Source: Luteimonas rhizosphaericola (GTDB lineage Bacteria > Pseudomonadota > Gammaproteobacteria > Xanthomonadales > Xanthomonadaceae). Taken from it: a DNA stretch of 64,000 bases. The position numbers and the translations under genes are program-made. Below, piece by piece: positions 45,495 to 64,000 of this stretch. The notes beneath the pieces are model-generated. The model did no database searches. It was not told the origin of the DNA and was given only the letters and a program-made list of their open reading frames with translations. Numbering within the stretch: the stretch's first letter is position 1; each line of letters starts with the position of its first letter. The stretch spans positions 418,935 to 482,934 of the forward strand of contig NZ_JARXRN010000021.1 of NCBI RefSeq assembly GCF_029888045.1. The letters are read 5' to 3'.

Positions 45495-47066
45495 GTGACG
45501 TCGATCCCGTCCCCCTTCGACGCCCTGCGCGCGCTGCTGCCCCTGCCCGGCCGCGGCGGGCCGGACGGCGGCCCGTTCGGGCCCCTGGGCGATCTTCCCG
45601 ATCTCGACGACGGACCGCCGCGCGGGCCCGGCCAACATGCGCGCCATGGTGACGGGCCATCTGGTCCGGCTGGCCCGGGTGGTCCGTTGCGCGCGGACGG
45701 ACAGGCGCCCCTGAGTCCTTCCGAGGCGCACCAGATCGCCGATACGCTCACCGACGCGATGCGCCAGAATCCGTCGCATCCGCTGTTCCGCGATCTGCCG
45801 CAGACCTCGCCCGAAGCGTTCCGGCAGTGGGTGGTCGACGTGCTGACCTCGCCCCAGAGCATGATGCAGGGCCTGCCGCGTGAGACCGTCCACTCGCTGG
45901 CCCAGGCCACGTCGGTCGCCGCCGCGCTGCTGCGCGAACCGGGGCCGTCGCCTGCGATGGCCCAGGCGCGTGCGGAAGGCGACGCGATGCGGGCCAGCAT
46001 CCAGGCCCAGGCGCAGGCACAACAGGCGACGGCCGAGCGCGCACACGCGATGCCGCGTGGCGACGATGCACGGATCCAGGCGTCGCTGGCCCAGCAGGCG
46101 GGAGATGGCCGGATGTCCGCCGATCCGCGCGTCGCGTCCGCGCTCGCACAGGCTCAGGCCCAGGCGCCAGGCCAAGCACCGGGCCTGACGCAGGCGCCGC
46201 GGGCCGAGACCGGCCTGCCGCCCGGCGCGTTCCCGCCGCAGGGCACCCCGACCACGCCGGCCGCGCAGGTGCCAGGATCTACCGTCGCACAGGGACATCC
46301 GGCTCAGGCCCCGGCAGACGCGGCGCGCCCGGCGACCGAATCGCCGGCGACGCTGCTGCAGGCCCGTGGACCCGAGGGCGTCCTGCCGGCCCGTGCCGAA
46401 CGCGCGGGCGATGCGCTCCCGCAGGGCGGGCTCCCGGGCCTCGCCGGGGCGGCTGGCATCACTCTCGCCGCGGTGGCACAGCCTGCCGGCACCACGTTCG
46501 CCCACGCGCCGCAGGACGCGGTCCGCGCCCGCACGCCGGCCGAGCGCCGCGTCGCGCGCGACGCCGCCGCGAAGGAGGCGGCTGCGCAGGAACAGGCCCA
46601 GGCCCGCGACGGCGATGGGCGTCAGGAGCAGCGCAATCGGAAGCGGGCGGCGCCTGCGGACGGTGGCGCGGAACGGCGCCCGGCCAGCAGTGCGCCGCCC
46701 GGCACATCGCAGGCGAACGCGAACGCAACCGCGACCGCGGCCGGACACGTGGCCCTGGCGGGAGCGTCCGGTGCGGCGCAGGCCGCCGACGACGGCGACG
46801 GGGAGATCCGACCCGGCGGCCACCTCGCGCCGGGCGAGGACACGCCCGATGGAAGCGAGGCGGACTCCAGTCCGCCGCAGTGGCTGTACTGGTCGCTCAT
46901 CGCCGTCACCTATGGCTGCCTGACCGGCGCGCTCGTCTTGATGTCTCCGTGGGCTGCCTCGGTTCCGGTCGCGATCGACGCGATGCCGGCGTGGCGCAAC
47001 GGACTCACGATCGCCGGGCTGGCGAGCGGGATCTGGGCCTGGCTGATCGCCAGGCGCATGCGCTAG
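45495..47066 (+). CDS. Unrecognised low-complexity protein with C-terminal membrane hairpin, T3SS-adjacent
   Basis: 523 residues, no family recognised. N-terminal 60 residues are Gly/Pro/Asp-rich; residues about 75-170 form a more complex helical part (LSPSEAHQIADTLTDAMRQN and onward); 170-455 is an Ala/Gln/Pro/Arg-rich low-complexity region; the last 62 residues hold two membrane segments (about 463-485 and 497-516) ending in ARRMR. A GTG start at 45495 follows GGGGAGG by six bases, the best ribosome-binding site in the region. It converges on the T3SS gene series, with a 19-base gap. Possibly a T3SS-related accessory or substrate; this is only positional inference. Confidence 0.8.
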   Translation: MTSIPSPFDALRALLPLPGRGGPDGGPFGPLGDLPDLDDGPPRGPGQHARHGDGPSGPAGPGGPLRADGQAPLSPSEAHQIADTLTDAMRQNPSHPLFRDLPQTSPEAFRQWVVDVLTSPQSMMQGLPRETVHSLAQATSVAAALLREPGPSPAMAQARAEGDAMRASIQAQAQAQQATAERAHAMPRGDDARIQASLAQQAGDGRMSADPRVASALAQAQAQAPGQAPGLTQAPRAETGLPPGAFPPQGTPTTPAAQVPGSTVAQGHPAQAPADAARPATESPATLLQARGPEGVLPARAERAGDALPQGGLPGLAGAAGITLAAVAQPAGTTFAHAPQDAVRARTPAERRVARDAAAKEAAAQEQAQARDGDGRQEQRNRKRAAPADGGAERRPASSAPPGTSQANANATATAAGHVALAGASGAAQAADDGDGEIRPGGHLAPGEDTPDGSEADSSPPQWLYWSLIAVTYGCLTGALVLMSPWAASVPVAIDAMPAWRNGLTIAGLASGIWAWLIARRMR

Positions 47067-48079: not shown

Positions 48080-48421
48080 TCAGCCCGACTTGCGCGCGAT
48101 CTGGGTGTTGCCCTCGCCCAGGCTCTTGATGATGTTGCTGGTGGCCTGCATGAACATGTTCATGGTCTGGCTGTAGGCGTTCATCTTGGCATTGAGCTCG
48201 GTGAGCTGGGAATTCTCGCCACCGTCGGACACACGCTGTTGCTCGGTATCGATGGCCTTGGCCATCTTCACCAGGTTCTCGCCCATCTTGTCGGCGATCT
48301 TGCCCAGGACCATCGCGAGGACGACGAGCCAGCTGCCGCCCTTGGCGAGCTTGGCCTCGACGGCCAGCTGGTCCACGCTCATCTGGGAATAATCGTTCAT
48401 GGTGGGACGGATATCGGTCAT
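48080..48421 (-). CDS. Small helical T3SS-linked protein (filament/needle-like candidate)
   Basis: 113 residues. A hydrophobic stretch (WLVVLAMVLGKIADKM, about 31-46) is followed by a long amphipathic helical C-terminus (QLTELNAKMNAYSQTMNMFMQATSN, about 72-96, split as QLTELNAKMNAYSQTM and ATSNIIKSLGEGNTQIARK). The C-terminal pattern recalls EspA/needle-type T3SS subunits, but no clear family match could be made by eye. No cysteines. AGGAG lies eight bases before the ATG. The strong ribosome-binding site and following terminator suit a highly made secreted subunit; this is inference. Confidence 0.72.
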   Translation of the reverse strand: MTDIRPTMNDYSQMSVDQLAVEAKLAKGGSWLVVLAMVLGKIADKMGENLVKMAKAIDTEQQRVSDGGENSQLTELNAKMNAYSQTMNMFMQATSNIIKSLGEGNTQIARKSG

Positions 48422-55314: not shown

Positions 55315-55650
55315 TTACTGCTTGCGGGCGACCGCGTTCAACGACTCGGCCACGCTGTTCTGCGAGGTCGCGGCGTTGTTGGACATGAACTGCATCTTCA
55401 GGCTGGCGGCGGTCAGCGCCACCATCTGCGAAGGCTGGTCGGAGCCGGCGCCGATCTGGTCGGACAGCTGGGTGATCTCCGAGGCCTGGGAATCGAGCGT
55501 CTGACCCCACGCGCGCGACATCGCTTCGTACCAGCTGCTGCCGCTGCCCGCGCCGCCGCCGCTGCGCACCCCGTTGGTGCCGGGACCGTTGTTGAACGTC
55601 GCCGCGCCGATGTACTGGTTGATCAGGTTGCCGTCGGTTGGAATCGTCAT
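55315..55650 (-). CDS. T3SS needle- or rod-like small subunit (SctF candidate)
   Basis: 111 residues, no Cys. Gly/Asn/Ser-rich N-terminal 40 residues, then two helices (MSRAWGQTLDSQASEITQLSD and MVALTAASLKMQFMSNNAAT, with SQNSVAESLNAVARKQ at the end). Length, helix-loop-helix pattern and position between sctD and sctI suggest the needle subunit or a second rod-type subunit, but the sequence is not close enough to SctF to be sure. A 136-base gap upstream could hold a separate promoter; none was fixed. Confidence 0.72.
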   Translation of the reverse strand: MTIPTDGNLINQYIGAATFNNGPGTNGVRSGGGAGSGSSWYEAMSRAWGQTLDSQASEITQLSDQIGAGSDQPSQMVALTAASLKMQFMSNNAATSQNSVAESLNAVARKQ

Positions 55651-55786: not shown

Positions 55787-57052
55787 CTACGGCGTGTTGG
55801 GCTCGAGCGCGCCTGCACTCAGGCCCGGGCCGGTTTCAGGTTGCTGAACACCACGCGCGGGTCGCGCGGTCGCAGTGCCCGACGAGGCGCCCTGCGACGG
55901 CGCCTCGTCCGGCGGCGCATCGTCCGCGGGCGGCGCCGGTGCCGGCGACGGCCTGAGCTTCGCGAGCGCGCCGTCCGGACGCAGCACGTGCGCGTGCGCG
56001 CCGATCGAGATCAGCTCGCCCCAGCCGGGAATCGCGTCCCCGACCTGGTAACGCTCGCCGTCGGCGGTCTCGACGTACGGCGCGTCGCCGCGCACCACGG
56101 AGACGATGTGGGCCTGGGTCTGCGGAATCGCGCTGGCATCGGCCGTCGCATCCGCCACCGCCTCGTCCAGGTCCACCGGCTCGACCATGTTCACGCCGGT
56201 CTCGACCATCGCCCGGGAGCGGATGAATTCGCGCACCGCCTCGGCGTCGCCGCCCAGCCGGCCGGTGACGCGGACGTTGTTGTCGCCCAGGTATTCGGCC
56301 TGGACCTGGTAGCCGCCGGTCCGCATCACCTCGGCCACGTCCACCGCGAGATCCTCGCCGCTGCGCAGCTTGACGCTGGCCGGCAGCGCCTCGCTGGCGA
56401 TGCGGGCGTCCAGGCGCCCGGCGGTAGCGGCATCGTCGACCGTGCCGGCCAGCACCGCGTGGCCGTCGACGTCACGGGTGATGCGCACGTCGCTGACGCG
56501 ATGCTCGCGCGCCAGTTCGCGCAGCCGCTGCTCGACGTCGACCGGTGGCGGCGGGGCCGGCATCCAGGCGGCGAAGATCGCCAGGCCTGCCAGCGCCAGC
56601 ACCGCGATTCCCGCGATCATCGGCAAGCGGCTGGTGAAGGCGGGGCGCCGGCGCGGCGGCGCCTCGAGCCCGTAGTCGGGCGCCAGCGCCACCCATTCGG
56701 GCGCGTCGACGGGGCCGAACGCGATCGCGGCCTCGCCGATGCCGATCCGCTGGACCTGCGAGACCTCCACCGGATCGCCCGGGTGCAGGGTGCGCCCGGG
56801 CAGCTCCAGCGGCGCATCGAGCGCGCGCAGGTGGAAGCGCCCGTCGACCACGTTCACCAGCGCGTGGTGCGCGGCGACGCCGGCGTCGGCCAGGACCACG
56901 TCGCAGTCGTCGCCGCTGCCGACCAGCACCATCTCGCGACGCGACAGCGGGCGGCTGGCGCCCGCATGCAGGCCGGCGACGATGCGCAGGACGGCGGCGC
57001 CTTCAGGCGCGTCGTGAGGGGCGGTCGTATGTGGATCGGGGGGCATGGACAT
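55787..57052 (-). CDS. sctD: T3SS inner-membrane ring protein SctD
   Basis: 421 residues. N-terminal cytoplasmic FHA-like domain (about 20-115; VLVGSGDDCDVVLADAGVA), one membrane span (about 143-164), and a periplasmic part with BON-type ring-building repeats (about 170-300), then a Pro/Ala-rich tail (about 365-421). YscD/PrgH type. It lies 65 bases after sctV. The FHA-like domain lacks an obvious phosphothreonine-binding Arg, as usual in SctD. Confidence 0.88.
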   Translation of the reverse strand: MSMPPDPHTTAPHDAPEGAAVLRIVAGLHAGASRPLSRREMVLVGSGDDCDVVLADAGVAAHHALVNVVDGRFHLRALDAPLELPGRTLHPGDPVEVSQVQRIGIGEAAIAFGPVDAPEWVALAPDYGLEAPPRRRPAFTSRLPMIAGIAVLALAGLAIFAAWMPAPPPPVDVEQRLRELAREHRVSDVRITRDVDGHAVLAGTVDDAATAGRLDARIASEALPASVKLRSGEDLAVDVAEVMRTGGYQVQAEYLGDNNVRVTGRLGGDAEAVREFIRSRAMVETGVNMVEPVDLDEAVADATADASAIPQTQAHIVSVVRGDAPYVETADGERYQVGDAIPGWGELISIGAHAHVLRPDGALAKLRPSPAPAPPADDAPPDEAPSQGASSGTATARPARGVQQPETGPGLSAGALEPNTP

Positions 57053-57117
57053 CGGGTTCGGCTCCTGCGGGCGGGGGACCCCACGGGACGGGTGGTTCGG
57101 GCGGTGGCGCGGGACGG

Positions 57118-59175
57118 TCAGGCATTGATCTGTCCGGCCTGCACGATCCGGAGGTCAGGCGCGAGCTCCTGGTAGGAAAGCACCGGCAGGTCGAAGAAAT
57201 CCACCTCCAGCAGCTTGCGCAGGTGGCGTCGCACGTCGAGCGAACACAGCAGCACCGGGCGCACGCCCGGCACCTGACGCGCCAGGTGCGCGCGGACCTC
57301 GCTGCCCAGCCGCGCGGCGAGTTCGGGCGAGATCGCCAGCTGGCTGGCGCCGCCGGCCACGCGTACCGACTGGCGCAGCTTGTCCTCGAGTTCGGGATGG
57401 ATCAGCAGCACGTGCAGCTGGCGTTCGGCATCGGACCAGCGCTCGGCGATCTCGCGCTTGAGCGCCACGCGCACGTACTCGGTCAGCAGCACGACGTCCT
57501 TCTCGCGGCTGCCGACGTCGGTGATGGCTTCGAACGCGTCGCGCAGGTTGCGGATCGGGACGCCTTCCTCGGCCAGCCGTCGCAGCACGTCGGCCACGCG
57601 CTGCGGCGCCACCACGCGCAGCATCTCCTTGATCAGGTCCGGGTAGTCGCGCTGCATCTTGCCGAACAGGTTGGAGGTTTCCTGGATGCCCAGGAAACTG
57701 CCGAGCCGGCGCCGCAGCGCGGCATCGACGTGCAACACCAGCACGTCCAGCGGCGCCAGCGCGCCCTCGGCCGCGGGGCCGTCGCGCCATTGTCCCGACA
57801 GCGGCGGGAACCAGCCCGGCTGCGGCGACGCGCCGGGCGCCTGCGGTTCGAACGCGCCATCGCGCGGCAGGCGGCCGGACGCGACCCGCGCGCCGTGCGC
57901 ACTGAGCCGGAACTCGCCCTCGGTCAACGCGCCGGACACGCGCACCACCGGCGTGGGCAGCGGCACGCCGAACTCGTCGCGCACCTGGCGCGTGACGCCG
58001 GCGACGCGCGCGCGCACCGGCTCCTGGCCGATCACCGTCGCCAGCGCCGGCGACAGCTCCAGCAGCAGCGGTGGCGGCGGCGCGAAGTCGTCGGTTTCCT
58101 CCGGCACCTGCGATGCGGCCATCTCCTCGTCGCTGACCTTGAACAGCTTGCGCAGGGTCTCGAACTGCAGACGGTAGCGCCAGGCGCTGAAGCCGAGCAG
58201 GCCCAGGCCCAGCACCAGGAACACCGGCCACGGGAAGCCGGGCACCAGGGTCATCAGCATCGCCAGCAGCCCGGTGATCAGCGCCACCCGCGGCTGCGCG
58301 CCGACCTGGCGGGTGATGGCGTCGCCGAGGTGGCGATCCTCGATCTCGCCCGCCGTGCGCGTGACCACCAGGCCCGCGGCCATGGTCGCCAGGATCGCGG
58401 GGATCTGCGACACCAGGCCGTCGCCGATGGTCAGGATGCTGTAGGTATGCGTGGCCTGGGCCAGCGACATGTCCTTCTGCAGCACGCCGATCGCCAGGCC
58501 GCCCAGCAGGTTCACCAGGATGATGACGATGCCGCAGATCGCATCGCCCTTGACGAACTTCATCGCGCCATCGAGCGAGCCGTGGAGCTGGCTCTCGGTC
58601 TCCAGCAGGCGGCGCTTCTTGCGCGCCTCGTCCTTGTCGATCAGGCCCGAGCGCAGGTCGGAATCGATCGACAGCTGCTTGCCGGGCATCGCGTCGAGGG
58701 TGAAGCGGGCCGCGACCTCGGCCACGCGCTCGGCGCCCTTGGCGATCACGATGAACTGCACCACGGTGATGATCAGGAACACCACCAGGCCGACCACCAG
58801 GTTGTTGCCGGCCACCAGCGTGCCGAAGGTTTCGACGATGTGACCGCCTTCGGCATGCAGCAGGATCGACTTGGTGATCGCGATCGAGATCGCCAGCCGG
58901 AACAGCGTGGTCAGCAGCAGGACGCTGGGAAAGCTGGAGAACGCGACCGGGTTGGGGATGTAGATGCCCAGCAGCAGCAGGCCGAACCCGATCGAGATGT
59001 TGATCGCCACCAGGGTGTCCAGCGCCACCATCGGCAGCGGCAGGATCATCACGCTGATGATCAGCACCGCGCCGAAGGCGAGGATCACGTCGCTGTAGCC
59101 GGCCCGGCGCCGCGGCGCGGAGCCTTCCGGTGCCGCGAGCAGTGAGGACAGCCAGCCGCGTACGTTCGTCGTCAT
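57118..59175 (-). CDS. sctV: T3SS export gate protein SctV
   Basis: 685 residues. FlhA/SctV family: about eight membrane helices in the first 330 residues, including the conserved FHIPEP signature equivalents (FPSVLLLTTLFRLAISIA, about 81-98; AARFTLDAMPGKQLSIDSDL, about 156-175; GDGLVSQIPAI, about 269-279), followed by the cytoplasmic nonameric ring domain. First gene of the leftward sctV-D-(F)-I-J-K-L-N-O-P series. The 164-base gap upstream has an AT-rich promoter-like stretch (59265-59310). Confidence 0.96.
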   Translation of the reverse strand: MTTNVRGWLSSLLAAPEGSAPRRRAGYSDVILAFGAVLIISVMILPLPMVALDTLVAINISIGFGLLLLGIYIPNPVAFSSFPSVLLLTTLFRLAISIAITKSILLHAEGGHIVETFGTLVAGNNLVVGLVVFLIITVVQFIVIAKGAERVAEVAARFTLDAMPGKQLSIDSDLRSGLIDKDEARKKRRLLETESQLHGSLDGAMKFVKGDAICGIVIILVNLLGGLAIGVLQKDMSLAQATHTYSILTIGDGLVSQIPAILATMAAGLVVTRTAGEIEDRHLGDAITRQVGAQPRVALITGLLAMLMTLVPGFPWPVFLVLGLGLLGFSAWRYRLQFETLRKLFKVSDEEMAASQVPEETDDFAPPPPLLLELSPALATVIGQEPVRARVAGVTRQVRDEFGVPLPTPVVRVSGALTEGEFRLSAHGARVASGRLPRDGAFEPQAPGASPQPGWFPPLSGQWRDGPAAEGALAPLDVLVLHVDAALRRRLGSFLGIQETSNLFGKMQRDYPDLIKEMLRVVAPQRVADVLRRLAEEGVPIRNLRDAFEAITDVGSREKDVVLLTEYVRVALKREIAERWSDAERQLHVLLIHPELEDKLRQSVRVAGGASQLAISPELAARLGSEVRAHLARQVPGVRPVLLCSLDVRRHLRKLLEVDFFDLPVLSYQELAPDLRIVQAGQINA

Positions 59176-59339: not shown

Positions 59340-59786
59340 TCACGATCGTTTAACCTTGAACCGCTGTAATAAGCCGGGCGTGCCGTTCGCGGTGCCGGAG
59401 TGCTGGCGGGCGAGGGTGTCGAGGGCCACCGGCCCCAGATCATCGTCGTCGAGCGTGGATACCAGCGTCACTGCGTTCGCGCTCACTCCGACGGCGAAGG
59501 CACGGCCGGCGCGCGACCGCAGCACCACGATGCGTTCGCGCGGGCCCACCGGCAGCACCTGCACGACGGACAGCGGCGCGTCCGGGCCGGCCAGGCCGAA
59601 CCGGCGCCGCAGGAGACGGAGCAGCACCAGCAGGAAGACGATGATGAACGCAAGCGGCAACAGGATCGCGAGCAGTTCCCCCACGTACGACCCGCCTTCT
59701 CCAGCGGGCGCCACGGGCGTCGCGATCGCGGGCAGGGACAGGCTCGACAGCAGCAGCGGGGTGACCAGGCGTCGGCTCGGCGTCAT
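59340..59786 (-). CDS. FliO-like protein encoded in the T3SS locus
   Basis: 148 residues. Signal-like N-terminus (about 1-23), one strong membrane segment (about 37-60: LLAILLPLAFIIVFLLVLLR), then a short cytoplasmic domain with LSVVQVLPVGPRERIVVLRSRAGRAFAVGV (about 72-101, split as VGPRERIVVLRSRAGRAFAVG), matching the FliO family pattern of a G-P-R-E-R loop followed by a G-V strand. FliO assists assembly of FliP/Q/R in flagella. No flagellar genes are in the window, and the flanking genes are T3SS-specific. Confidence 0.8.
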   Translation of the reverse strand: MTPSRRLVTPLLLSSLSLPAIATPVAPAGEGGSYVGELLAILLPLAFIIVFLLVLLRLLRRRFGLAGPDAPLSVVQVLPVGPRERIVVLRSRAGRAFAVGVSANAVTLVSTLDDDDLGPVALDTLARQHSGTANGTPGLLQRFKVKRS

Positions 59787-59912
59787 CGTCGGACTTCATC
59801 GCGCGGGGACGCCGGACGGGACCGGCATCGGGGCCGCATACCCTAGCAGGCAACCGCGTTGGCCGCGTGTCGGCGCGGCGCGGCGCGCTGCGGGCGGCAG
59901 GAGACCGGCCGC

Positions 59913-60992
59913 GTGAGTCCGCGTGCCGCGCGCCCCGGTGCCACCGCGGGCGCGGCCGCTCCCGGACTCGGCGCGATCCTGGATGCGATCCCGTTCGCCT
60001 GCGCGGCATTCTCCCGCGCCGATGGCGCGCTGGCGGCTGCCAACCACGGCTTCCAGGACGCCTTCGCCGCCCTGCCCGGGCATCGCGACCGGCAGCAGCT
60101 GGCGAGCGCGCTGGGCGTGGCCCCGGACGCGGACGGCGCCGAAGCGCGCGCGCCGCACAGCGGCCACTGGTACGCGCTGCACTGGAGGCCGCTGGCGGCG
60201 GACGGACAGGCGTTCGACCTGCTCACCGCGGTCGACATCAGCGCCCGGCTGGAGGCGCTGGATACCCACAAGCACCGGCAGGAGAAGCTGCTGTTCACCT
60301 CGCGGCTGATGTCGGTGGGCGAAATGGCGGCCACCCTCGCGCACGAACTCAACCAGCCGCTGGCGGCGATCGTGAACTACCTCAACGGCAGCCTGCGCCT
60401 GGTGGGCCAGGCCGGCGGCCCGGCGCAGGTGGAGCGGGCACTGGTGGCCGCGCGCACCCAGGCCGAGCACGCCAGCGCCGTGATCGCGCGCGTGCGCGAA
60501 TTCGTGCGCGCACGCGAGCCGCGGCGCGATGCGCAGGAGGTCGGCGTGATCGCGCACACGGTGCTGGAGCTGCTGCGGCTGGAGGCCGAGCGCCAGCAGC
60601 TGCGCATCGACCTGGCGCTATCGCCGTCGCTGCCGGCGGTCTACGCCGACCGGGTGATGGTGGAGCAGGTGCTGCTCAACCTGGTCAAGAACGCGATCGA
60701 GGCGATGCGCGAGGTGCCGGCGCCGCAGCGCGAACTGCGTATCGAGGGCCGCGTGAACCTCGACGATGAGATCGAGGTGCGGGTGCTCGACCGCGGCGGC
60801 GGGCTCGGCCCGGCCGAAAGCGAACAACTGTTCTCGCCCTTCTTCACCACCAAGTCCGATGGCCTGGGCATCGGCCTGGCCATCTGCCGCTCGATCATCG
60901 AATACCATGAGGGTCGATTGTTCTTCGAACCCAGGACCGGCGGCGGCAGCGTATTCGCGTTCACGCTGCCGCGCGCGGAAGGGAGGCTGTAG
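59913..60992 (+). CDS. Cytoplasmic sensor histidine kinase (PAS-type, FixL-like)
   Basis: 359 residues. No membrane segment. N-terminal PAS-like domain (about 18-115), H-box TLAHELNQPLAAIVNYL (His144), N-box NLVKNAIEAM (about 255-264), G1 DRGGGLG, F-box FSPFFTTK and G2 GLGIGLAI. A GTG at 59913 is chosen because AGGAG (59899-59903) lies nine bases upstream; earlier in-frame starts have none. It is first gene of the rightward operon HK-RR-sctQ-sctR-sctS and probably controls T3SS expression. Confidence 0.9.
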   Translation: MSPRAARPGATAGAAAPGLGAILDAIPFACAAFSRADGALAAANHGFQDAFAALPGHRDRQQLASALGVAPDADGAEARAPHSGHWYALHWRPLAADGQAFDLLTAVDISARLEALDTHKHRQEKLLFTSRLMSVGEMAATLAHELNQPLAAIVNYLNGSLRLVGQAGGPAQVERALVAARTQAEHASAVIARVREFVRAREPRRDAQEVGVIAHTVLELLRLEAERQQLRIDLALSPSLPAVYADRVMVEQVLLNLVKNAIEAMREVPAPQRELRIEGRVNLDDEIEVRVLDRGGGLGPAESEQLFSPFFTTKSDGLGIGLAICRSIIEYHEGRLFFEPRTGGGSVFAFTLPRAEGRL

Positions 60993-60995
60993 GGA

Positions 60996-61592
60996 ATGGC
61001 ATCCGCACGCATCTACCTGGTCGACGACAACGATCCCTTCCGCGAGTCCACCGCGTGGCTGCTGGAAACGGCCGGCTTTGAGCCGCGGCCGTTCGCCTCC
61101 GGCGCCGCGTTCCTGGCCGCCTACGAGGCCGACCGCCACGGTGCGCGCGACGAATGCCTGGTCTCCGACATCCGCATGCCGCAGATGAGCGGCCTGCAGC
61201 TGCAGGACGAGATGCTCCGGCGCGGGATCCGCCTGCCGCTGGTGTTCGTCACCGCGCACGGCGACGTGCCGCTCGCGGTGGAGGCGATGCGCAAGGGCGC
61301 CACCAATTTCCTCGAGAAGCCGTTCACCGACGATGCGCTGCTGCACGCGATCGAGGCGGCCTTCGCCAGCCGCCGGCTGCCGGCGCAGATGCGCAACGAG
61401 GCGCTGGAGAAGCTGAGCCCGCGCGAGCGCCAGGTGCTCGACCTGGTGGTGGCGAGCAAGCCGAACAAGATCATCGCCGACATCCTCGGCATCAGCATCA
61501 AGACCGTGGAACTGCACCGCGCGAACATGATGTCCAAACTGGGCGTGCGCTCGCTGCCCGAACTGATGAAGGTGGCACTGGGCCATGGCTGA
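60996..61592 (+). CDS. FixJ-type response regulator
   Basis: 198 residues. Receiver domain with acidic pocket Asp10-Asp11, phosphoacceptor Asp58 (in VSDIRMP), and Lys in EKPFTDDAL (about 108-116); then a LuxR/NarL HTH (about 134-195: LSPRERQVLDLVVASKPNKIIADILGISIKTVELHRANMMSKLG region). It starts four bases after the kinase stop and overlaps sctQ by eight bases, so it is made with both. Its likely targets are the T3SS promoters nearby. Confidence 0.93.
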   Translation: MASARIYLVDDNDPFRESTAWLLETAGFEPRPFASGAAFLAAYEADRHGARDECLVSDIRMPQMSGLQLQDEMLRRGIRLPLVFVTAHGDVPLAVEAMRKGATNFLEKPFTDDALLHAIEAAFASRRLPAQMRNEALEKLSPRERQVLDLVVASKPNKIIADILGISIKTVELHRANMMSKLGVRSLPELMKVALGHG

Positions 61593-62706
61593 CCGTTCCG
61601 GCAAGACGTCACGCAAGGGCGCACCCCGCGTCCCCGCGCAGGCGCCCTCTTCCCAACCCGATGCGCGCCAGGTGGGCGCGGTCGGCGACCGCCTGCCGCG
61701 GCTGTCGCCGGCGCAGGCGGCTGCGCTGCGCGGCCTGTTCGCCTCGCCGCAGACCTGGACCCTGCAGGGCAACGGGGTGCTCCAGTTCATGCCCGGGCGC
61801 CCTGCCTCGCCGGCGCAGGCGTTCGAACTCGATGCGGAGGGCACCCGCATCGGCCTCGGTCTGCAGGCGCCCGACACCGACGCCGCCGTGCACTGGACCG
61901 ACTACAGCGGCCGTTCGCGCGTGCTCGCCTGGAGCCTGGCGCACGAGGCGTCGCTGGTGCGGCTGAGCGACGCCTTCGGCGTCGTGCTCACGCCGCAGGT
62001 GGACGTGGACGCCGCGGCTCCGGCGGAGGCCGACGCGCTCTGGCTGGACTTCATCGTCGACGAGGATCCCGGCGACGACGGTGCCTCGCGCATGCCGTCG
62101 CTGCAGGGCGCGTTGCGCGCGCCGCCGGCGTGGACCGACCGCCTGCTCGAACGCGCCGATCCACCCTACGACGATCCCGTGCCGCTGCCGGCGCGCTGGC
62201 GCGAACTGGGCACCACCGTCTCGGTGCTGTGGCGGATCCCGCCGCTGCCCTGGGCCGACTGGTCGCGGCTGCGTCCGGGCGACGTGCTGGTCGCTGGCCG
62301 CCAGAGCCGTCCACCGCGCGCGCAGGCCTGCGCCGCCGGCCTTGCCTGGCCGATCGCTCCCGAATCCGGCGGCTGGCGCATCGACGGCCCGCCCGCTCCC
62401 CTACCCAGTGCTGTGCAGGAGGCTTCCCCCATGAGCGACACCCCCCAGGACGACGGCAACCCGGCGGCGGCACCGGACGGCGACGCGCTCGCGCGGCGGC
62501 TGCCGGTCGACATCGCGTTCGAACTCGGCCGCAGCGAGCTGCGCATCGGCGAGCTCTCGGCGCTGCAGCCCGGCTATGTCTTCCCGCTGGCTGCGCCGGT
62601 GGAGGGCATGAACGTGACCATCCGCGCCAACGGCCAGGCCGTGGGCCAGGGCGAACTGGTCGCGGTCGGCGACACGCTCGGCGTGCGCCTGCTGTCGTGG
62701 ACCTGA
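61585..62706 (+). CDS. sctQ: T3SS C-ring/sorting-platform protein SctQ
   Basis: 373 residues. N-terminal variable part, middle SpoA-like region and a clear C-terminal SpoA domain (LPVDIAFELGRSELRIGEL, about 303-321, and VEGMNVTIRANGQAVGQGELVAVGDTLGVRLL after it). YscQ/HrcQ/SpaO type. It overlaps the response regulator gene. An internal ribosome-binding site and ATG (62417-62433) predict a separate SctQ-C product. Confidence 0.9.
   Translation: MADRSGKTSRKGAPRVPAQAPSSQPDARQVGAVGDRLPRLSPAQAAALRGLFASPQTWTLQGNGVLQFMPGRPASPAQAFELDAEGTRIGLGLQAPDTDAAVHWTDYSGRSRVLAWSLAHEASLVRLSDAFGVVLTPQVDVDAAAPAEADALWLDFIVDEDPGDDGASRMPSLQGALRAPPAWTDRLLERADPPYDDPVPLPARWRELGTTVSVLWRIPPLPWADWSRLRPGDVLVAGRQSRPPRAQACAAGLAWPIAPESGGWRIDGPPAPLPSAVQEASPMSDTPQDDGNPAAAPDGDALARRLPVDIAFELGRSELRIGELSALQPGYVFPLAAPVEGMNVTIRANGQAVGQGELVAVGDTLGVRLLSWT
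62417..62433 (+). promoter_or_regulatory. Internal Shine-Dalgarno and start for SctQ-C
   Basis: A perfect AGGAGG (62417-62422) lies eight bases before an in-frame ATG (62431-62433) inside sctQ, at codon 283. This is the strongest ribosome-binding site in the T3SS region and lies where other SctQ genes (YscQ, SpaO) have an internal start. Confidence 0.85.
62431..62706 (+). CDS. SctQ-C (internally started C-terminal SpoA fragment)
   Basis: 91 residues in the same frame as sctQ, covering the terminal SpoA domain with a short N-terminal Asp/Pro/Ala-rich lead. In Yersinia and Salmonella the equivalent short product joins the full SctQ to form the pod. Presence here is predicted from the internal AGGAGG and ATG. 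Confidence 0.75.
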   Translation: MSDTPQDDGNPAAAPDGDALARRLPVDIAFELGRSELRIGELSALQPGYVFPLAAPVEGMNVTIRANGQAVGQGELVAVGDTLGVRLLSWT

Positions 62707-62746: not shown

Positions 62747-63769
62747 ATGGACCTGAGCAGCTATTCCCCCGCCCTGGTACTGGTCGTCATCGTCGCGCTG
62801 GCGCTGGCGCCCTTCGTCGCGGTGATGGTGACCTCGTTCACCAAGATCGTGGTGGTGCTGAGCCTGCTGCGCAATGCGCTGGGGCTGCAGCAGGTGCCGC
62901 CGAACGTGGTCATCAACGGCCTGGCGATCGTGCTGTCGATCTACGTGATGTATCCGGTGATCCTGCAGACCTACGAAGCGGTGACCGCCCACCAGCAGGG
63001 GCGGCCGGTACCGGCCGAGGTGCAGGCGCAGGTGGACCGGCGCGAACGCGAGCAGGCCGCGCGCGCCCGGGCGCAGGCCGAACGCGCCGCGCAGCGGGCG
63101 CAGGCGCCGGGTGCGGACGGTGGTGCATCCGCCGCGGCGCCGGCCGGCCCGCTCGCGCAGGGTGCGGAGCCGCCGCCGGCGAGCCCGGCCGCGGCCGACG
63201 CCCTGCGTGCCGAATCCGAAGCGGAAACCGCGCGCGCGGCGTCCGAGCCCGGCCCGCTGTTCCGCAACGTCACCACCGGCGAAACTGCGGAGGGCGGCGA
63301 CGGCGCGCAGGCCGAGATCGTGGTGCCGGCGCCGGCGCAGTCGAGCCCGCCGGTGGCTGCCGGCACCGACGGCGCGCGCCTGCTGGCCATGTTCGAGGCC
63401 GGCAAGGAGCCGCTGCGCACGTTCCTGATCGAGCACTCGAACGACGCCGAGCGCGGCTTCTTCCTGCGCAGCGCGCGCAGCCTGCTGCCCGAATCGCGCC
63501 GCAACGACCTCAGCGTGGACGACTTCATCGTCGTGGTCCCGGCGTTCACCGTGAGCGAGCTGACCGCCGCGTTCCAGATCGGCTTCCTGATCTTCCTGCC
63601 GTTCCTGATCATCGACCTGGTGGTGGCCAACATCCTGCTCGCGCTGGGGATGATGATGATGTCGCCCACCACCGTCTCGCTGCCGTTCAAGCTGCTGCTG
63701 TTCGTGCTGATCGACGGCTGGGCCAAGCTGGTGCACGGACTCGTGCTCACCTACACGCCCGGGGGCTGA
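62747..63769 (+). CDS. sctR: T3SS export apparatus protein SctR with large inserted segment
   Basis: 340 residues; SctR/FliP proteins are usually about 215-250. The canonical parts are intact: TM1-TM2 (about 8-80, with the FTKIVVVLSLLRNALGLQQVPPN loop), the LLAMFEAGKEPLRTFL stretch (about 212-227), LLPESRRNDLSVDDFIVVVPAFTVSELTAAFQIGF (about 247-281; key S-E-L-x-x-A-F-x-I-G) and terminal TMs with MMMMSPTTVSLPFK. Residues about 85-207 (62999-63367) are an inserted Ala/Arg/Gln/Pro-rich low-complexity region in the soluble loop. It follows sctQ by 40 bases. Confidence 0.93.
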   Translation: MDLSSYSPALVLVVIVALALAPFVAVMVTSFTKIVVVLSLLRNALGLQQVPPNVVINGLAIVLSIYVMYPVILQTYEAVTAHQQGRPVPAEVQAQVDRREREQAARARAQAERAAQRAQAPGADGGASAAAPAGPLAQGAEPPPASPAAADALRAESEAETARAASEPGPLFRNVTTGETAEGGDGAQAEIVVPAPAQSSPPVAAGTDGARLLAMFEAGKEPLRTFLIEHSNDAERGFFLRSARSLLPESRRNDLSVDDFIVVVPAFTVSELTAAFQIGFLIFLPFLIIDLVVANILLALGMMMMSPTTVSLPFKLLLFVLIDGWAKLVHGLVLTYTPGG

Positions 63770-63770
63770 C

Positions 63771-64000
63771 ATGGGCGAGACCCTCGAACTCACCCGCCAG
63801 GCGCTGTGGCTGGTACTGATGCTGTCGGGGCCGCCGATCGCGGCGGCGGCGATCGTCGGCCTGGTGGTCGCGTTCCTGCAGGCCGCCACCCAGATCCAGG
63901 AGCAGACCTTCGCCTACGCGCTGAAGTTCGTCGCCATCGTGCTGGCGCTGTTCGTCACCGGAGCGATGATCGGCGGCACGCTGTACACCTATTCGAACCG
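63771..64000 (+). CDS. sctS: T3SS export apparatus protein SctS (3'-truncated by window edge)
   Basis: The first 76 codons of a SctS/FliQ-type protein (usually about 88 residues). Two membrane hairpins: LWLVLMLSGPPIAAAAIVGLVVAFLQAATQIQEQT (about 13-47; key P-P and Q-E-Q-T) and FVAIVLALFVTGAMIGGTLY (about 53-72). It begins one base after the sctR stop. The C-terminal end and the sctT, sctU genes expected next are beyond the window. Confidence 0.95.
   Translation, partial: MGETLELTRQALWLVLMLSGPPIAAAAIVGLVVAFLQAATQIQEQTFAYALKFVAIVLALFVTGAMIGGTLYTYSN

Follow-up and report, generated by a model that had tools for sequence, protein, structure and literature searches.

The export-gate subunit SctR encoded by Luteimonas rhizosphaericola in the stretch of DNA analysed here (64,000 nucleotides, hereafter the window) carries a greatly enlarged loop. 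It is near certain that this insert is a real, selected and lineage-specific enlargement (65-151 aa) of the mobile loop between the second transmembrane helix (TM2) and the first periplasmic helix. The enlarged loop occurs together with the absence of the secretin gene sctC, and our preferred reading, to which we assign a probability of about 0.4, is that it is a periplasmic tether which compensates for the lost secretin anchor. Few parts of type III secretion are as conserved as the export-gate core, and an accessory loop that is itself conserved, on the gate of a secretin-less lineage, would give a direct handle on gate anchoring without a secretin in environmental bacteria.

The sctR gene (62747..63769, + strand) encodes 340 aa and was matched by PF00813 (229.8 bits) and NF009438 (276.7 bits). 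It scored 252.1 bits against TIGR01102, the equivalog model of the type III secretion system (T3SS), over the cut-off of 208.6, and 193.8 bits against the flagellar TIGR01103, under the cut-off of 217.45. An earlier note on this DNA had described the membrane segments and core motifs as intact, which was borne out: the methionine gasket GMMMM was kept at residues 301-305 (across 79 aligned rows G301, M302 and M304 were invariant and M303 nearly so), and the MTSF-type hinge appeared as VTSF at residues 28-31, with T29-F31 invariant in the same 79 rows. By sequence, motifs and gasket the protein belongs to the family of the canonical SctR/FliP proteins (Shigella Spa24, Salmonella SpaP, FliP); each export gate holds five SctR copies, and the pentamer with SctS and SctT is established for homologues. 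However, the loop of the canonical proteins has about 12-20 aa, while that of the Luteimonas/Lysobacter/Vulcaniibacterium clade has 65-151 aa and contains conserved blocks. Among the neighbours, sctQ (61585..62706, +; TIGR02551 115.4 bits, cut-off 100.8) and sctV (57118..59175, -; PF00771; TIGR01399 709.7 bits, cut-off 692.25) were named by family models; for sctS and sctT, position and conservation were the only basis. The 88-aa sctS (63771..64000, +) passes the end of the window and is complete in locus L114.

The Pfam and NCBIfam models of FliP/SctR matched SctR in two pieces, and the part between them, residues 82-207 (62990..63367, +), was unmatched. The coordinates proposed earlier for the insert, 62999-63367, were correct and correspond to residues 85-207 of the 340-aa ORF. 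The spacer between TM2 and the conserved periplasmic helix measured 132 aa versus 16 aa in Dyella, a surplus of about 116 residues. Counted by window residues 80-213, it was 134 aa here; of the 36 insert-less loci, 34 had 14-22 aa and the other two, both from Sphingomonas, had 37-39 aa. These two (L105 and L111) represent a separate, modest lengthening of the same loop, which is Gly/Pro-rich, and the Sphingomonas cluster L178, from the genome of L105, retains sctC. Eighty loci were fetched for comparison, and L059 and L061, cut by contig ends, were left out; the remaining 78 comprised 36 insert-less loci and 42 with extra sequence (41 long and one short, L069), which together with the window gave 43 rows. 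Over residues 82-210 the insert was conserved with variable length, 62-145 aa in 42 of the 43 rows, and the remaining row, Coralloluteibacterium L069, had a loop of 30 aa. Residues 82-210 of the window contain 29% Ala, 12% Pro, 10% Gly, 9% Glu, 8.5% each of Gln and Arg, and no Cys. "Low complexity", as the segment had been called, is only partly apt, since conserved blocks are present and helices are predicted at residues 90-119 and 147-165; likewise, codon use stays consistent through the insert roughly but not fully (GC3 0.88 in the insert versus 0.97 in the core). A known domain was rejected as the identity of the insert, for none was found at the depth searched in Pfam and among solved structures (best structure match E 0.14). 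A duplication from elsewhere in the genome was also rejected, the four other matches having E 0.05 or worse and internal stops. A scan of the phylum gave SctR unsplit among the matches listed and is silent on inserts elsewhere.

The placement of the insert in a soluble periplasmic loop agrees with homologues, in which the stretch after TM2 is periplasmic; its position in the assembled gate is likewise taken from homologues. According to an excerpt of PMC10019453, residues 72-78 to 92-93 of SctR in the Shigella needle complex are unobserved in every one of the five copies, and the alignment pairs residue 93 of that chain with window residue 217. The loop that the insert enlarges is therefore mobile in an ordinary injectisome. 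On gate opening, the alpha3-alpha4 helix-turn-helix of FliP swings outward, as reported in part of PMC12403130, and the insert probably sits in the loop connecting these two helices. The same excerpt describes a FliP p-loop (155-166) that fastens the gate to the FliF ring, and a similar role is proposed here for the SctR loop; however, the p-loop aligns to window residues of about 244-259, outside the insert. The further statement that the insert lies around the needle base was not supported, for it presumes an ordinary needle complex in a system whose genome has no SctC-type secretin and for which family models gave no identifiable needle subunit.

We read 53 clusters as DNA (that of the window, L128-L142, L146-L165 and L166-L182), and took sctC as absent when neither of two T3SS secretin queries matched. 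In all 34 clusters with a spacer of 65-151 aa sctC was absent and the sctD-sctV gap was 38-343 bp, and each of the 19 clusters whose spacer was 12-35 aa had a secretin match inside a sctD-sctV gap of 1.8-3.6 kb. The corresponding junction of the window, the site of sctC in short-loop relatives, is 57053..57117. Since L128-L142 and L146-L165 were taken largely from genomes in which SctR had matched in split form, the 34/34 tests sctC, not loop length. No TIGR02516 match over the cut-off, and hence no cognate SctC of a complete injectisome, was found in the window's genome; three secretins were found there, none on this contig, and they scored best as GspD, PilQ and GspD. In six long-loop genomes (that of the window, G374, G386, G395 of L. 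enzymogenes, G399 and G402), 15 secretins were found, best as GspD (nine, two of them under the GspD cut-off) or PilQ (six); these reached 90-143 bits against TIGR02516 versus a cut-off of 238 and 350 bits for the Dyella secretin. A secretin lies within the cluster in Dyella and in Coralloluteibacterium, and SctC was present in 24 of the 24 short-loop genomes searched, namely Coralloluteibacterium and 23 of the 36 insert-less loci, 19 of them among the clusters read. The five further genomes (L095, L097, L098, L102 and L113) have a SctC-type secretin with TIGR02516 scores of about 380-395 bits, located on another contig in L113 and about 146 kb away in L095.

The same association appeared family-wide. 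Among 395 genomes, SctR was over the cut-off in 89 (33 unsplit and 56 split matches) and SctC in 34, that is, in 33/33 genomes with unsplit and 1/56 with split SctR; the cross-table was compiled by eye from two listings, and its totals agree with the tallies of 89 and 34. The sole exception, G018, is Coralloluteibacterium, the short-looped sister lineage. At least five genomes with partial, sub-cut-off SctR are uncounted (G012, G205, G293, G332 and G355), none of which has SctC over the cut-off. The 33 unsplit genomes fall in other genus codes, and the window's own genus code has no unsplit SctR over the cut-off. The unsplit SctR proteins that were fetched (L004-L033) share 38-53% identity with the window over the C-terminal part, and those of the insert-less Dyella and relatives (L077-L086) 71-77%. 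The 33 are probably other T3SS types, and they make a weaker contrast than the 19 sister clusters.

In a tree of SctR alone, the long-loop rows were placed loosely, forming one clade in 47% of 200 bootstrap trees; therefore a concatenated tree of SctV, SctN and the SctR core was made (LG+G4, short search, midpoint root), to which a long-branch warning applies for the outer rows. Here the long-loop, sctC-less rows were one side of a branch with an SH-aLRT of 99. Going inward from the Caulobacter/Sphingomonas root, sctC is present in Rhodanobacteraceae (loop of 16-20 aa) and next in Coralloluteibacterium (33 aa), and it is absent from Vulcaniibacterium (65 aa) and then from Lysobacter and Luteimonas (83-151 aa). 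This reads as a modest lengthening, then secretin loss and then a strong expansion. That sister clusters keep sctC at the corresponding position suggests that the secretin was lost secondarily here. The link between loop and secretin comes down to a single evolutionary event, and cause cannot be proved from such an association.

Secretin absence in Lysobacter is not new. According to the excerpt of de Bruijn 2015 (PMC4657364), the T3S secretin gene is absent from five Lysobacter strains, in which only T2S and type IV pilus secretins occur, and L. enzymogenes (L137) has the same cluster as the window. That excerpt, however, does not mention a SctR loop, does not sample more widely and does not reconstruct how the secretin was lost. 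Part of PMC13163355 instead assigns a secretin of the T2SS region to the T3SS. Neither a SctR/FliP insertion nor a link between loop and secretin was found in our searches of the open-licence literature. The "needleless" T3SS* of Myxococcus is also non-flagellar and without a secretin, but in the excerpts of PMC3459982 and PMC12075869 that absence is read as ancestral; it is different here, where the sister lineages keep sctC between sctD and sctV and the loss looks secondary. The non-flagellar cluster of the window also has a fliO-like gene adjoining sctV (59340..59786, -; PF04347 38.5 bits, cut-off 22); excerpts of PMC12403147 already report FliO in the Luteimonas T3SS and in the myxococcal vT3SS. 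A second FliO match in the genome lies beside FliP on contig C20. FliO as the cause was rejected, for a FliO-like match was also found in 11 of the 19 short-loop clusters.

Selection on the insert was evident from substitution rates. By the Nei-Gojobori method, its dN/dS was 0.14-0.79 and below 1 in 23/23 pairs, which overlap in members, and that of the core was 0.01-0.26; the insert exceeded the core in 22 pairs and equalled it to two decimals in one. The core had a weighted pN/pS of 0.09 and the linkers one of 0.49-0.66, and three blocks evolved more slowly than the linkers. Block 1 is a predicted helix at residues 90-119 (63014..63103, +; pLDDT 87-92 for residues 81-120). Before and at the start of this helix GRPxPxxVQxQ (residues 85-95) is conserved (pN/pS 0.31 for residues 82-106), and a 21-bp imperfect tandem repeat lies within the block. 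Block 2, of the type SPAAADALxAEAEA (residues 144-160; 63176..63226, +; pN/pS 0.20), begins mid-loop, at about residue 65 of the 129-residue loop. SPAA[AV][DAG] occurred in 33 of the 43 loops, versus a mean of 0.42 and a highest count of 3 in 500 shuffles; the ten loops without it (L055, L057, L067, L068, L069, L071, L072, L073, L076 and L091) are mostly from Lysobacter. Block 3, [LMQ]FxxVxxG (residues 169-178; 63251..63280, +; pN/pS 0.35), was present in 20 loops and absent from 23, with a mean of 0.02 and a highest of 1 in shuffles. Such motif counts are inflated by shared descent; constraint is better judged from the pN/pS of each region. No single motif is universal, because blocks 2 and 3 are absent from some loops and the loop of the L. 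enzymogenes group is merely Ala/Pro/Thr-rich. An AlphaFold2 model of SctR from the 79-row alignment (mean pLDDT 69.8, pTM 0.50) gave helices at residues 90-119 and 147-165, the second of which covers block 2. The average pLDDT was below 60 for residues 121-140 and 171-210, and about half of the insert is predicted to be disordered. Fully extended, half the loop would reach roughly 20 nm at 0.36 nm per residue, and less where helical.

In some relatives a block 3-like motif also occurs in SctD, which in the window (55787..57052, -; 421 aa; PF16697 42.4 bits, cut-off 33.2) has an Ala/Pro-rich C-terminal tail (about 55790-56020), as in many long-loop genomes. Of the 34 long-loop clusters, seven (L129, L130, L131, L134, L142, L163 and L164) have F..V in this tail, and all seven fall among the 16 whose SctR loop has F..V. 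The flanks match by lineage: DPMF..V goes with DPRF..VV in L129-L131 and L134, and FANVQGSPDAT with FSNVVGSPDAT in L142 (F.NV.GSPDAT in SctR and SctD). This motif was a lead found while looking rather than a pre-planned test. Similarity between SctR loop and SctD tail exceeded shuffles at p<0.01 (400 shuffles, uncorrected) in 6 of 32 clusters, two of which (L153 and L157) reflect shared Ala/Pro/Thr richness; L163 and L164 (loops not cut) and L136 and L139 (short or not cut) were left out. The SctD tail of the window has no F..V and no significant similarity to its SctR loop (p 0.25). In the relatives that have it, F..V in both loop and tail suggests a shared docking partner.

In the mechanism we propose, five SctR loops would ring the gate exit as flexible periplasmic tethers. 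Near its middle each would present the short conserved helix of block 2, and the loops of many Luteimonas also the hydrophobic F..V motif of block 3. By holding the gate and early rod to another component of the envelope, the loops would take over the anchoring role that the N-domains of the secretin have in ordinary injectisomes. In Shigella it is SctI that ties the export apparatus to SctC, through a beta-strand (PMC10019453, in part). This contact cannot form here because SctC is absent, and the loop may replace the tie. In favour of the tether we count the co-occurrence of long loop and missing sctC (34/34 and 19/19), the tree, the family scan and the GspD/PilQ-like secretins, together with dN/dS below 1, blocks that are slower than the linkers, blocks 2 and 3 in excess of shuffles, the predicted helix of block 2 and the F..V in SctD tails. 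Against it stand the single event, blocks that are not universal, the window's SctD tail without the motif, an insert evolving much faster than the core, the Coralloluteibacterium extension (33 aa) that precedes sctC loss, and a 35-aa Sphingomonas loop with sctC.

The close rival, tentative but quite plausible, is relaxed constraint, which accounts for most of the facts almost equally well. In this view the loss of the secretin with its N-domains would have freed space around the gate, and an already mobile loop would have lengthened through small in-frame duplications in a genome rich in GC; its blocks would be only weakly selected for solubility or helicity. The higher dN/dS of the insert in 22 of 23 pairs, the range of 62-145 aa across 42 rows, the 21-bp repeat in block 1, the ten loops, mostly from Lysobacter, without block 2, and the fact that the loop is unresolved even in Shigella (PMC10019453, in part) all speak for it. 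However, dN/dS of the insert was below 1 in every pair, and 33 of 43 loops retain block 2, which has a pN/pS of 0.20. Furthermore, no short-loop row occurs inside the 34-row sctC-less clade, whose clusters were chosen by split SctR, and the family scan also gave no unsplit SctR over the cut-off in the window's genus code.

It is unlikely that the loop and the loss of the secretin are unconnected and coincide only because one ancestor had both traits: both do map to the same stretch of one tree, in a single event and with elongation to 33 aa before the loss, but the step to at least 65 aa falls on the branch that lost sctC, and 53 of 53 clusters fit. We consider it quite unlikely that the T3SS was rewired to a borrowed secretin, PilQ of the type IV pilus or GspD of type II secretion, with SctR loops and SctD tails as adaptor arms docking the gate. 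If true, this would link the T3SS with type IV pili and would fit twitching data from L. enzymogenes. According to the excerpt of Fulano 2020 (PMC7277350), strain OH11 exports a test flagellin in dependence on flhB and fliI, and twitching is lost in flhA, flhB, fliI and fliR mutants but kept in those of fliP and fliQ. One FliP-family gene was found in L. enzymogenes ATCC 29487 (G395), and the "fliP" of that excerpt is probably sctR; in that case the effect on twitching does not come from the loop. It is very doubtful that five disordered loops crowd the exit as a brush that seals or filters the channel or guides early subunits: five copies per gate, a location near the exit by homology and the predicted disorder of about half of the insert would suit a brush, but it would not need the conserved blocks, and the net charge ranges from -13 to +3 among the 43 loops. 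An assembly or frame error, or a decaying gene, is practically negligible, as related loci carry the insert in frame (a comparable loop occurs in 41 other SctR genes) where the earlier note had allowed that they might lack it, core pN/pS is 0.09, the TIGR01102 score is over its cut-off, and nothing was found in favour of error or decay.

Several other features of the cluster were observed. Between fliO and sctQ (59859-61592, +) lie a histidine-kinase-like ORF and a FixJ-like response regulator (NF006900 204 bits, under the cut-off), and matches to both were found in 71 of the 80 loci. A probable sctU lies on another contig of the window's genome (G000:C17:308631-309641; L123:12608-13711), and a sctU match falls inside the same locus of about 11 kb in 51 of the 80 relatives. 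Regarding the needle subunit SctF, two small cluster proteins of 111 aa (55315-55650, -) and 113 aa (48080-48421, -) had no convincing Pfam or NCBIfam match; they occur in 15/15 and 13/15 other clusters, respectively, and are candidate needle or filament subunits. At the cluster edge, an Ala/Gln-rich ORF of 523 aa (45495-47066, +) had no Pfam match, and only its hydrophobic C-terminus (about residues 455-523) was matched in 7 of 15 other clusters.
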